Source of the DNA: a virus
DNA length: 31,581 nt
Virus record (IMG/VR): IMGVR_UViG_3300017751_000111
Span: 1 to 31,581 of that record
Strand: one strand, 5' to 3'
Shown: positions 12,085 through 16,421 of the stretch, in pieces
Position numbering within the stretch: the stretch's first letter is position 1
How the letters are laid out: every line of letters begins with the position of its first letter
Notes under the pieces: generated by a model
The model's database searches: none
Told to the model about the DNA's origin: nothing
The model's input: the letters and a program-made list of their open reading frames with translations, nothing else
Translations under genes and position numbers: made by a program

Positions 12085-12573
12085 ATGGCAGTATTAGACC
12101 CAAACGAAATATTTTTCACCGCTTTTGAACCCAAAGTAGCTAATAGGTTTATAATGTATGTTGATGGTTTTCCATCTTACATTATAAAGGGTGTTAGTGG
12201 ATTAGGTTTTGCACAAGATGAAATTACATTAAATCATATCAATACTTATAGAAAAGTAAAAGGTAAATTAAGATGGAATGATATTACTATGCAGTTATTT
12301 GATCCAATTACACCATCAGGTGCTCAAGCAGTAATGGAATGGGTTAGATTACACCATGAATCAGTAACAGGTAGAGATGGGTATAGTGATTTCTATAAAA
12401 AAGATTTAACTATAGATGTATTAGGTCCTGTAGGTGATGTAGTTAGTGAATGGATTATAAAAGGTGCATTTATTAAAGATGGTTCATTTGCCGATATGAA
12501 TTGGGACACTGATGGTGAAGCAATGAATATTGACTTAACAATCGGAATGGATTATTGCGTATTAAATTTCTAA
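12085..12573 (+). CDS. 19: Tail tube protein (T4 gp19-like)
   Basis: The 162-residue protein has the size of T4 gp19 (163) and the family pattern: NRFIMYVDGFPSYIIKGVSG near the start, the central LNHINTYRKVKGKLRW-NDITMQLFDPI stretch, and the end INLTIG-type strand (MNIDLTIGMDYCVLNF). Tube subunits stack as hexamers inside the sheath and conduct DNA. It follows the sheath gene and is followed by a strong terminator, so sheath and tube form one late unit. A-rich leader, no Shine-Dalgarno sequence. Confidence 0.93.
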   Translation: MAVLDPNEIFFTAFEPKVANRFIMYVDGFPSYIIKGVSGLGFAQDEITLNHINTYRKVKGKLRWNDITMQLFDPITPSGAQAVMEWVRLHHESVTGRDGYSDFYKKDLTIDVLGPVGDVVSEWIIKGAFIKDGSFADMNWDTDGEAMNIDLTIGMDYCVLNF

Positions 12574-12598: not shown

Positions 12599-12625
12599 AG
12601 CTTGGCTTCGGTCAAGCTTTTTTTT
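12599..12625 (+). terminator. Rho-independent terminator after the tube gene
   Basis: AGCTTGGC-TTCG-GTCAAGCT forms an 8-bp stem (one G-T pair) with the stable UUCG tetraloop closed by C-G, followed by eight T residues (12618-12625). An A-rich stretch lies upstream. It separates highly expressed sheath and tube genes from the chaperone and tape-measure genes. Confidence 0.93.
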
Positions 12626-12634
12626 ATGTTATGT

Positions 12635-12674: not shown

Positions 12675-13421
12675 ATGGAAGAATTAAAATTACCCACTGA
12701 ACAAGTAGACCTCCCCTCAAAAGGTTTAGTCTATTCTAAAGACAATCCTTTATCTTCTGGAGTCATTGAAATGAAATATATGACTGCTAAAGAAGAAGAT
12801 ATTTTAACTAATCAAAATTACATTAAAGATGGAACGGTTGTTGATAGGTTACTAAAGGCATTAATTGTATCAAAAATTAACTATGATGATTTAATTGTAG
12901 GAGATAAAAATGCAATTATGGTAGCAGCGCGTGTTTTAGGGTATGGTAAAGACTATACTTTTAATTATGATGGGGAAACTGTAACTGTAGATCTATCAGA
13001 GTTAGAACAACGTTTTATCGATGAAGAAGTATTAATTGAAAAAAATACTAACCAATTTTCATTTACACTACCTCACTCAAAGGTTGAAATTACTTTTAAA
13101 CTATTAAATAATAGAGATGATAAATCTATTAAAGCTGAAATAAAAGGTTTAAAAAAGATAGATAAAAAAGCATCCCCTGAATTATCAACTCGTTTAAAAT
13201 ATATGATTACTTCTATAAATGGTGATAGTGATGTAAAGACTATTAGAGAATTTGTAGATAATTATATGCTAGCTAGAGATTCAAGAGCATTTAGAGAATA
13301 TATTAGAGAATTCCAACCAGATATTGATTTAACTTTCAACCATGTGAGTAGTGACGGCAACGAAAGGGATCTTACCCTTCCGATGACCGTCAACTTTTTT
13401 TGGCCTGACAGCGACTTATAG
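12675..13421 (+). CDS. T4 gp26-like baseplate/tail assembly chaperone (zero-frame product)
   Basis: The 248-residue product begins LPTEQVDLPSKGLVYSKDNP and continues with MTAKEEDILTNQNYIKDG, LIVGDKNAIMVAARVLGYG and a C-terminal LTLPMTVNFFWPDSDL. This is the pattern of the T4 gp26-type baseplate family, which I associate with tail assembly chaperones. Family members often carry Cys-x2-Cys before the final FFWP block. Here no cysteines remain (FNHVSSDGNERD in that place). The gene lies immediately upstream of the tape measure gene, the classical position of chaperone genes that use a translational frameshift. The stop TAG is at 13419-13421, and a continuing frame is open from 13387 (see the extension entry). 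Confidence 0.75.
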   Translation: MEELKLPTEQVDLPSKGLVYSKDNPLSSGVIEMKYMTAKEEDILTNQNYIKDGTVVDRLLKALIVSKINYDDLIVGDKNAIMVAARVLGYGKDYTFNYDGETVTVDLSELEQRFIDEEVLIEKNTNQFSFTLPHSKVEITFKLLNNRDDKSIKAEIKGLKKIDKKASPELSTRLKYMITSINGDSDVKTIREFVDNYMLARDSRAFREYIREFQPDIDLTFNHVSSDGNERDLTLPMTVNFFWPDSDL

Positions 13422-13701
13422 GATCAATCTCTTCAAGACCATCCATGAAATAGTATATTATGGAAATGGTGGTTATGATTGGAATACTGTTTATAGTATG
13501 CCTATATGGTTGCGGAGATTTACCTACCAGCAAATCCACGAAGCAAGATCTGCAGAACAAGAAGCAATGAAAAAAGCTTCTAAAGGGAAGGGGACTAATA
13601 TAGATTTAAATAGTAATATTAAACAAAAAATCCCTAAACAAGCACTTCAACCAAAACAAAAACTATCTCCAAATTATGTTACGAAGGCATCAAGAAAATG
13701 A
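13387..13701 (+). CDS. Frameshift extension of the tail assembly chaperone (+1 frame, no own start)
   Basis: The frame one base ahead of the chaperone gene is open from 13387 (after a TGA at 13384-13386) to the TGA at 13699-13701. Its first ATG is at 13498, but the codons before it already read as ordinary protein: TYRINLFKTIHEIVYYGN, GGYDWNTVYSMPIWLRRFTY. Translation from 13498 alone would discard this part and give only 67 residues. Fusion at the T7 run (13395-13401) would give a product of about 342 residues, similar in logic to lambda gpGT. The tail end is basic and Gln/Lys-rich (KQKIPKQALQPKQKL), suited to binding the tape measure. Alternatives are an independent short gene from 13498, or a homopolymer error in the assembly. 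Confidence 0.65.
   Translation, partial: PSTFFGLTATYRINLFKTIHEIVYYGNGGYDWNTVYSMPIWLRRFTYQQIHEARSAEQEAMKKASKGKGTNIDLNSNIKQKIPKQALQPKQKLSPNYVTKASRK
13395..13401 (+). other. Candidate slippery site (seven T) for programmed +1 or -2 frameshift
   Basis: The zero frame reads AAC TTT TTT TGG CCT. After a +1 slip the P-site Phe tRNA re-pairs perfectly on TTT at 13399-13401 and the next codon is GGC. A -2 slip would also keep perfect TTT pairing. Within the only window where both frames are open (13387-13421) this run is the clear slip candidate. Confidence 0.55.
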
Positions 13702-13708
13702 TGCCTTC
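13683..13708 (+). terminator. Strong hairpin between chaperone extension and tape measure gene
   Basis: GAAGGCATCA and TGATGCCTTC form a perfect 10-bp stem around an AGAAAA loop. The right arm contains the TGA stop (13699-13701). The stretch after it is TAATATTTAT rather than a T run, so it is a weak intrinsic terminator or an mRNA processing/stabilising hairpin. A TATTTATA motif follows at once. Confidence 0.6.
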
Positions 13709-13736: not shown

Positions 13737-16421
13737 ATGGCTGATCAAAAAGACATACAAAATCAAAAGGATCTCAATAATGAGATGTCTCAAACTAAAT
13801 CCAATCAAAAGGATATTAATAAGGAGATGTCCATAACTAAATCTTTTGAAGAACAAATTATTGACCTTTTAAGTAAAAGAAGAGGAATTAATTCTGATGT
13901 ACTTTCAGATCAGCAAGATATAGCAAATACTCTCCAAGATCAAGTTAAACAACAAAAATTCTTAAACTCAGAAAAAAAATTAGCTAGAGATATATCAAAC
14001 CAGATTACAAAGATAGCACAAGACACTTATGCAGTTACTAAAGATGAATTAGGTCTGACCCAAACAAATTCTAAATTAAAAAAACAACAACAAACTTTAG
14101 AAAAAAATATTATTTTAGCAAAACAACAACAAGCTAAATTTTCTAAAATGTCTTTAGAAGGAGATATAGAAAGTAGAAAATTAAATGCTGAAATTGCTAG
14201 ATCATTAGGAGAACAAGCTAAACAAGCACAAAAAACAAGTACACAAATAGATTCAATTGCAAAAGGTTCTGAAGGAATATCAAAAGCTTTAGGGGTTAAA
14301 ACCTTTGGTGGTTTATCTGAAATAATGGAAAAAGTCCCAGGATTAAGTAAATTTAGTGGTCCTTTTAAAGAGGCAGCAGAAGCTGCTAGGGAACATGGAG
14401 CAGCTGAAATTGAAAGAAACATGGCTGTAAATAAAGGGATAAGTGAATATAAACAGCTAAGAGCAGAAGGTGTAGGGATGTCTGAAGCTATGAAACAAGC
14501 TGGGGTTAATGCTAAACAAATTAAAGTAGGTGAATTACCTTTAAAAGCCCCTGGAACCCTCAAAGCAGGTTTTAAATCTTTAGGACCTGCCATTGCTAAA
14601 GCATTTGGTCCTATAGCTTTAGCAACTACAGCATTGAATATGGTAATTAAAGCCTTTAAATCTGCTGACCAATCTGCAGGTCAATTAGCTAAAAGTCAGG
14701 GAATATCATATGAAGAAGCACGTAAATTTAATCAAGAAATTGCTGACTCAGGAGTAACAAGTGGTAAACTGTTAACTAATACTAAAGATGTAGTAGCTGC
14801 CCAAATAGAATTAAATAAAATATTTGGAACATCTCTTAAATTTTCAAATGAATTTGCAGCTGAATTTTCAGAAATACAAAAAAGAACAGGTCTATCAGGA
14901 CATGCAATGGAATTATTTGCTGAAAAAGCAATGTTAGGTGGAACTTCTATACAAGATCAATTAGAAAAAGTTACAGCTGTTACTCAAGAATTAAATGCCC
15001 AAAATTCAATTTCACTAAGTGCTAAAGACATTCAAGAAGGTATTGGTCAAATGTCAGCTTCCCAAATATTAAATAATAAAATGAATACCAAAGAAATGGC
15101 TAACCAGGTATTTCAAGCTAAAATGTTAGGTATTTCTCAATCTCAATTAGAAGGTGTTCAAAGTAAGTTATTAGATTTTGAAAGTTCAATTGCAGCTGAA
15201 ATGGAAGCTGAATTATTAACAGGTAAACAACTTAATTTAGAAGGAGCTAGAGCCGCAGCATTAGCAGGTGACCAAGCTAAACTAGCAGCTGAATTAAGAA
15301 AAGAAGTAGGTACAGCTGCTGAGTTTGGGGCAATGAATGTAATCCAACAAGAAGCAATGGCTAAAGCATTTGGGTTGTCTAGAGATGATATGTCTAAAAT
15401 GTTAATAGAACAGGAAAAACTTGCGTCTCTACAAAAAGCATTTGGGGGTGATGTTAAAACAATGAGTGAGGCCCAAGCTGAATATAATAGATTATCAGCA
15501 GCCGGTGAATTAACAGAAAAGAAAAAGAAAGAATTAGCTGAAGCAGGAGTATTAGATCAACTAGAATCAGTATCACAACAAGAAAAATTAACTGCTATTA
15601 CTGAAAAGTTAACAGATTTATTTATTCAACTAGCTGACCCATTAATTCCTGTAATCAGTAAAATTATGGATATAGGAGCAGCAATAATTCAATTTGTAGC
15701 ACCAGCATTTAAAATGCTTGGAAAAGTAATTGAAGGTATAATGGTTGTCCTTCAACCTATAGTCGATGCCTTTATGCTTATAGGAGAATTAATTGGTTCA
15801 TTCTTTGACCCAACACAATCATTTTTTGACACTTTAAGTGAAGCTGATCCTTTAGTACAAGGTTTAGCTGTAGCTTTTGGAATTGTAGGAACAGCTTTAG
15901 TAGTATCTATTTTACCATCTATTGCAGCTGCTGTAATTTCAATGGGGGCACTTGCTATTGAAGCCGGTATAGCAGCAGTTGCAGCAGTCACCAGTGCATC
16001 AGCAATGACTTTAGGTGTTGGAGCAATTGCAATAGCTGCTGGTATAGCAACAGTAGTAGCTGCTATGAGTAGCGCTGAACCAGCAGGTGATATGTTTTCT
16101 CCAGCTGATGGTAGAACACAAGTATCAACAAAAGAGGGTGGATTATTTGAACTTTCCCCAAATGATGATTTCATGGCGGCTCCGGGTATATCTAATATGA
16201 TGAGTAGTAGTAACCCTACACCACCATCAACTCCACCAGCAACCTCATCACCTACAAGTAATACCTCCCAACAAGGGACAACTCAATCTAACCAACAGTT
16301 AGTAGAATTAAACGCTAAAATGAGTAGGTTAATATCAATTATAGAAAAAGGTGGTGATGTTATTATAGATGGAGCTAAAGTAGGTAAATCATTAGTATTA
16401 GCATCTTCTAAAATAGGTTAA
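13737..16421 (+). CDS. Tail tape measure protein
   Basis: At 894 residues this is longer than T4 gp29 (590). The first ~180 residues are polar, Gln/Lys-rich coiled coil. They start with a 14-residue tandem duplication (QKDLNNEMSQTKSN / QKDINKEMSITKSF). A long helical middle follows (MSEAMKQAGVNAKQIKVG..., LNNKMNTKEMANQVFQAKML). Between about residues 630 and 780 there are several hydrophobic segments (AFGIVGTALVVSILPSIAAA, MTLGVGAIAIAAGIATVVAA), the membrane-active part common in tape measures. The C-terminus has a Pro/Ser/Thr linker and a final amphipathic stretch (MSRLISIIEKGGDVIIDG). Position after the chaperone and before baseplate genes fits. It sets tail length and is ejected during infection. 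Confidence 0.88.
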   Translation: MADQKDIQNQKDLNNEMSQTKSNQKDINKEMSITKSFEEQIIDLLSKRRGINSDVLSDQQDIANTLQDQVKQQKFLNSEKKLARDISNQITKIAQDTYAVTKDELGLTQTNSKLKKQQQTLEKNIILAKQQQAKFSKMSLEGDIESRKLNAEIARSLGEQAKQAQKTSTQIDSIAKGSEGISKALGVKTFGGLSEIMEKVPGLSKFSGPFKEAAEAAREHGAAEIERNMAVNKGISEYKQLRAEGVGMSEAMKQAGVNAKQIKVGELPLKAPGTLKAGFKSLGPAIAKAFGPIALATTALNMVIKAFKSADQSAGQLAKSQGISYEEARKFNQEIADSGVTSGKLLTNTKDVVAAQIELNKIFGTSLKFSNEFAAEFSEIQKRTGLSGHAMELFAEKAMLGGTSIQDQLEKVTAVTQELNAQNSISLSAKDIQEGIGQMSASQILNNKMNTKEMANQVFQAKMLGISQSQLEGVQSKLLDFESSIAAEMEAELLTGKQLNLEGARAAALAGDQAKLAAELRKEVGTAAEFGAMNVIQQEAMAKAFGLSRDDMSKMLIEQEKLASLQKAFGGDVKTMSEAQAEYNRLSAAGELTEKKKKELAEAGVLDQLESVSQQEKLTAITEKLTDLFIQLADPLIPVISKIMDIGAAIIQFVAPAFKMLGKVIEGIMVVLQPIVDAFMLIGELIGSFFDPTQSFFDTLSEADPLVQGLAVAFGIVGTALVVSILPSIAAAVISMGALAIEAGIAAVAAVTSASAMTLGVGAIAIAAGIATVVAAMSSAEPAGDMFSPADGRTQVSTKEGGLFELSPNDDFMAAPGISNMMSSSNPTPPSTPPATSSPTSNTSQQGTTQSNQQLVELNAKMSRLISIIEKGGDVIIDGAKVGKSLVLASSKIG
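13764..13847 (+). repeat. Two-copy 42-bp tandem repeat at the tape measure N-terminus
   Basis: Copies start at 13764 and 13806, each beginning CAAAAGGAT and encoding QKD(L/I)N(N/K)EMS(Q/I)TKS plus one variable residue. The 42-base period is a multiple of three, so the frame is kept. Confidence 0.7.

Follow-up and report, generated by a model that had tools for sequence, protein, structure and literature searches.

A probable +1 frameshift in a gp26/gp51-family tail chaperone gene, with a conserved stem-loop upstream of its slip site

Described frameshifting systems and the chaperone locus

The frameshift motif of phage lambda is GGGAAAG. In the available excerpt of Atkins 2016 (PMC5009743), frameshifting of tail chaperone genes is described as conserved in long-tailed phages "except T4", and transcripts of the Roseiflexus IS630 element are reported to lack one base. 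The T4-like tail chaperones are the topic of a 2022 Virology paper by Vladimirov and colleagues, and a 2025 paper that cites it mentions poly-T −1 signals in T4-like chaperone genes, as far as the accessible portions of these sources extend. Frameshifted tail chaperones are already known, and the 2022 paper covers related ground. A first, sequence-only reading of the DNA analysed here proposed a programmed frameshift in the tail chaperone gene and held that this is little described for T4-like phages. The latter statement is correct only in part, since the 2022 paper covers T4-like chaperones and the 2025 paper poly-T −1 signals; neither a +1 case in T4-like phages nor a +1 group with an upstream hairpin was found in the literature searched, beyond whose reach lay the content of the 2022 paper and most subscription papers.

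The analysed DNA (the window) is the whole 31,581-base virus record IMGVR_UViG_3300017751_000111. The features of the locus are listed below.

12085..12573, plus strand: tail tube gene (gp19-like), directly upstream of the chaperone gene (phrog_4542 tail tube, E 2.3e-22)
12675..13421, plus strand: short form of the likely gp26-like tail assembly chaperone, 248 amino acids, frame 0 (phrog_150 match; AlphaFold pLDDT 92)
13352..13392, plus strand: predicted RNA stem-loop just ahead of the slip site (folding energy −19.7 kcal/mol, z −4.8; covariation; synonymous-codon null)
13387..13421, plus strand: stretch of 35 bases in which both frames are open
13395..13401, plus strand: putative slip site, a run of seven T's read as TTT TTT T(GG), identical in 81 of 83 non-redundant relatives
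13402..13701, plus strand: +1-frame extension (putative C-terminal domain of the long form), 99 codons and a stop, without a start codon before 13498
13737..16421, plus strand: probable tape measure gene, 894 amino acids, directly downstream (from position and length; the immuto counterpart is annotated as tail tape measure protein)

As in the G/GT type, the chaperone gene has the tail tube gene on its upstream side and the putative tape measure gene on its downstream side. The 894-residue putative tape measure protein gave no family match of its own in Pfam and PHROG profile searches. The end of the frame-0 gene at 13421, the open +1 frame at 13387–13701, their 35-base overlap and the first ATG of the +1 frame at 13498 were all verified as first reported, and ATG, GTG and TTG are absent from this frame upstream of 13498. 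At the slip site, frame 0 reads AAC TTT TTT TGG CCT GAC and the +1 frame reads TTT TTT GGC CTG ACA; the frame-0 protein ends in NFFWPDSDL followed by the stop.

A strong intrinsic-terminator-like hairpin with a T run lies between the tail tube and chaperone genes (12599–12627), and a ten-pair terminator-like hairpin (13683–13708) spans the stop of the +1-frame extension. Elsewhere in the window, a 512-residue ORF overlies a collagen-repeat tail fibre-like gene (1191–2204) on the opposite strand.

Conservation of the slip site and coding of the +1 frame

We collected relatives from viral contigs; for the first part these were the best 80 of 586, and for the second part there were 49. One of the six peptide patterns used in the first-part scan spans the slip site and is degenerate for TTT/TTC, and the patterns of the second-part and distant-relative scans stay clear of it. 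The second part was in the +1 frame in all 131 sequences with matches to both parts, immuto, Mel-JY01 and the window included (132 sequences were counted, one of them ending at a contig end). Among the 137 loci with a first-part match, TTTTTTTGG was present in 130, TTTCTTTGG in 2 and neither site in 5. When the relatives were made non-redundant at 90% nucleotide identity, beyond which they are not phylogenetically independent, 81 of 83 carried TTTTTTTGG and 2 carried TTTCTTTGG; L133–L136 and L142, which are without the FFW site, and the cut locus L052 were left out. In this set the two Phe columns used the TTT codon in 83 of 83 and 81 of 81 Phe, a constancy matched by one other conserved synonymous-choice column only, that of the doubly coding Asp codon just 3'. 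The codon bias extended to the position before the slip site, where AAC accounted for 35 of 37 Asn codons in the non-redundant relatives versus a background of 29%. The comparison of the T run and of both frames in relatives, suggested as a check in the sequence-only reading, thus gave a near-invariant run with a constant frame relation, and the observation itself is borne out.

The same comparison bears on a sequencing or assembly error, in which the true run would be six T's within one continuous gene. Homopolymers are prone to sequencing error, and six T's had been named as the outcome that would overturn the proposal. However, the same T count recurs in the 130 loci and in an isolate, Mel-JY01; seven T's were also found in L084 and L085, which are other assemblies with both proteins identical to those of the window, and the isolate immuto shows the same arrangement at TTTCTTT, a broken run that shares the frame relation. 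Because identical assemblies carry T7 and isolate genomes share the arrangement, a miscounted T is very unlikely, and we consider the error reading refuted, its remaining probability being negligible.

We determined dN/dS for the stretch from the frame-0 stop to the first ATG of the window, using the 62 gapless relatives among the 83. The value was 0.13 in the +1 frame, whereas the remaining frames gave 1.13 and 1.68. These values indicate that the +1 frame evolves as protein before its ATG, in agreement with the first impression of its translation. That the second part is made separately from a start codon of its own, and not as a fusion, is hardly credible on these grounds: gene callers did call a separate gene there in immuto, SP-15 and Mel-JY01, and of the four T4-type phages L138–L141, which belong to another group, three have an ATG at the junction, but protein-like evolution begins upstream of the ATG, the window offers no ATG, GTG or TTG before 13498, and in the stretch tested 61 of 83 near relatives were without ATG and 24 without any of the three codons. 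The annotations of immuto and SP-15 give the second part as a separate short hypothetical protein and would thus miss the long form. An internal start at the CTG at 13405 was also considered and rejected; this codon is not conserved in TTTTTTTACC relatives.

The site varies more widely beyond the near relatives. A pattern scan for the TTTCTTT variant TTTCTTTGGCCTGAC fetched 80 loci, of which 61 belong to the family (with L001 and L015 added, 46 are non-redundant), a count that is uninformative on frequency because the scan targeted the variant itself. About 90 further distant loci (L263–L355) came from a profile scan that covered viral and genome contigs. A recognised site was present in 89 of 93 loci of the distant set, 76 of them non-redundant, distributed as TTTTTTTGGCCT in 44, TTTTTTTACCCT in 27, TTTCTTTGGCCT in 2, and TTCTTTTACCCT, TTCTTTTGGCCT and TTTTTTTTCCCT in 1 each; the +1 frame from the site was open for 58–100 codons in the 84 loci that were not cut off. 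A scan of viral contigs with the SP-15 protein matched only SP-15 itself.

TTTTTTTACCCT, the second large site type (L264, L272, L289 and others; 27 of the 76), encodes FFYP and consists of T7 followed by ACC. The contigs of the relatives L343–L355, which are probably binned phage contigs, are filed under MAGs of bacteria or archaea, among them Flavobacteriales and one Woesearchaeota bin.

The broken T runs TTTCTTT and TTCTTTT retained the +1 frame, and a +1 continuation was also found from TTT CAC in SP-15, TTT CGT in GXN1 and TTT CTA in a 484-kb phage. These sites share a UUU (or CUU) codon with a pyrimidine after it, an element at which a forward slip would re-pair. Retention of the +1 frame by broken runs argues against transcriptional slippage and, in part, against −2 slipping. 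A −2 ribosomal frameshift at the T run, as in phage Mu, would re-pair perfectly at T7 and add one Phe, and the sequence-only reading accordingly allowed a slip of +1 or −2. Only the +1 part of that claim held, since L271 (TTC TTT TGG), L267 (TTC TTT TAC) and GXN1 (TTC TTT CGT) re-pair fully in the forward direction and are mismatched after a −2 slip, which makes the −2 reading very improbable.

Other members of the wider group behave differently. In the 595-kb phage record L135 the chaperone gene continues in the −1 frame, and a −1-frame continuation at a T-rich site was likewise seen in the cyanophage, the two Rhizobium phages and the Pseudomonas phage of L138–L141.

The stem-loop upstream of the slip site

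A conserved stem-loop immediately 5' to the slip site, overlooked in the sequence-only reading, is the new element of this analysis as predicted from the alignments. It ends 2–4 bases before the slip site. The 45 bases 5' of the site had the lowest mean z (−1.66) of 42 windows in the 83 relatives. Among 12 distinct close relatives, changes on both sides of a pair were found in 8 cells versus 2.2 in shuffled alignments (0 of 500). We also used a null in which synonymous codons were exchanged between relatives at the same position (200 permutations); in each of the four groups, including that with TTTCTTT, folding was weaker under this null (0 of 200). Eight control stretches gave one value of 0 of 200 (TTTTTTTACC group, −90 to −45), one of 4 of 200 and six of 17 to 66 of 200. 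The first two of these values indicate that the upstream structure of the TTTTTTTACC group extends beyond the hairpin. The 3' arm tends to lie at −9 to −4, whereas lineages differ in hairpin position and in the 5' arm, and in many single relatives the hairpin z was not significant. One consensus hairpin for all lineages was sought and rejected, the 5' arm being different.

A shared downstream stimulator was also rejected: no consistent structure follows directly after the site, and 13402–13470 of the window had a z of 0.35. Farther on, at +30 to +75, a weak structure signal (mean z about −1 in the 83 relatives) lies within the +1 coding sequence.

For Roseiflexus IS630 the excerpted text (PMC5009743) describes the same arrangement, a hairpin immediately 5' to a T7 run, and the mean hairpin z was −1.6 in T7 lineages versus −0.95 in TTTCTTT lineages. 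Both observations would fit stem-loop-mediated transcriptional slippage, in which the polymerase, followed by a nascent hairpin, would produce a share of transcripts with six U's whose normal translation gives the long form. The stem-loop is present directly 5' of the site, but a slippage-prone homopolymer tract is not conserved: members with TTTCTTT (TTTCTTTGGCCTGAC) and TTCTTTT have no homopolymer to slip on and retain the +1 frame, and the broken-run TTTCTTT members retain the upstream structure too. Transcriptional slippage is therefore an unlikely explanation, and we infer instead that the stem-loop stimulates the shift by acting on the ribosome.

The Shine-Dalgarno-like stretch that precedes the slip codon by 3 bases in prfB-type sites is absent in the window, and the 3' arm of the stem-loop lies there. 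Ribosomes of Bacteroidia occlude the anti-Shine-Dalgarno, and Flavobacterium prfB retains its Shine-Dalgarno-like frameshift signal, according to the part of PMC8710568 that was available. If the host belongs to that class, a hairpin would be a reasonable substitute given this occlusion. A wider scheme, which we put forward tentatively and hold to be somewhat more doubtful than probable, is that the hairpin drives the +1 shift in place of the prfB Shine-Dalgarno helix, that this arrangement spread in phages of anti-Shine-Dalgarno-occluding hosts (e.g. Flavobacteriia), and that the T4-type chaperone family changed between having two separate genes and having a single frameshifted gene (+1 or −1).

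Protein family, proposed mechanism and known systems

The phrog_150 profile matched the short form with E 3.5e-10 (profile positions 9–233) and the fused protein with E 3.5e-11 (9–263), and its coverage in T4 is 14–235 for gp26 and 13–280 for gp51. Both T4 proteins carry PF12322. Among 18 relatives tested, phrog_150 was matched by all 18 and PF12322 by 13; the window protein had no Pfam match over the cut-off, PF12322 included. Profile-profile comparison of the family gave a probability of 96.6% against a small gp26-type set and 50% against a gp51 set, and the C-terminal part had no significant match to the gp51 C-terminus (hhalign probability 0.3%). These matches place the gene in the T4 gp26/gp51 family (PF12322/phrog_150), and its product is likely a tail assembly chaperone. 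The best solved-structure matches of the short-form AlphaFold model were YqbN (Z 5.6, 87 residues) and HK97 gp13 (Z 4.5, 79 residues), both below the caution level of 8 of the tool, with the next entry at Z 2.3; both proteins are tail chaperones according to the accessible part of PMC9603447. The added C-terminal domain was predicted as three helices. Foldseek against the PDB gave no match at E 0.001, the model of the C-terminal part had no significant match among viral models, and a sequence search of solved structures gave nothing meaningful. Each of three long records had one PF12322 match, which supports a single gene rather than a T4-like gene pair in these records; two further records had none, so the test is weak there. 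In immuto, tblastn found one place per record.

From the constant +1 relation, the near-invariant site and the coding before the ATG, a programmed frameshift in the tail chaperone gene remains the best reading, and very probably one gp26/gp51-family gene makes two proteins by +1 ribosomal frameshifting at UUU-Y. The majority of ribosomes would terminate at 13421 and give the 248-residue short form. A minority would slip +1, the P-site tRNA(Phe) on UUU re-pairing one base downstream (with UUU in the window and with UUC in relatives), and would read the +1 frame to 13701 to give a long form of about 341 residues with an extra conserved helical domain. The stem-loop is probably a stimulator of the shift that sits or refolds behind the ribosome, at about the position of the Shine-Dalgarno-like helix of prfB (release factor 2). 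If the analogy with lambda G/GT holds, the tape measure protein may be coated by many copies of the short form, and a few of the long form may recruit the protein of the tail tube. A large group of T4-type phages thus appears to use one gene of this chaperone family with a +1 shift, which suggests how the two genes of T4 relate, and the upstream stem-loop is an unusual candidate for a +1 stimulator.

The locus resembles lambda gpG/gpGT in the gene position between tail tube and tape measure and in a short form accompanied by a long form that results from a shift close to where the first frame ends (PMC5009743, excerpted text). In contrast to the −1 shift of lambda, the shift here would be +1 at UUU-Y with an upstream hairpin, in a different protein family. 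Roseiflexus IS630 likewise has a stem-loop directly 5' of the slip motif (same excerpt), whereas the motif here is often not a homopolymer. Both slippery forms seen here recur in prfB, which slips at CTTT, or at TTTT in some low-GC genomes, and as in prfB the candidate stimulator lies just upstream of the site (PMC12421855, available part). The stimulator of prfB is a Shine-Dalgarno-like helix and its A site holds a stop codon, whereas a stem-loop and the sense codon UGG are found here. T4 gp26 and gp51 belong to the same family, gp26 fitting the profile to the end of the short form and gp51 to the end of the profile, but they are two separate genes where one is found here, and the C-terminal similarity to gp51 is not significant. 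The −1 frameshifted chaperones of Pakpunavirus, as far as the source at hand describes them, and the genes of the T4-type cyanophage, Rhizobium and Pseudomonas phages have a T-rich site at the same gene position; their second part is in the −1 frame, whereas that of the present group is in the +1 frame.
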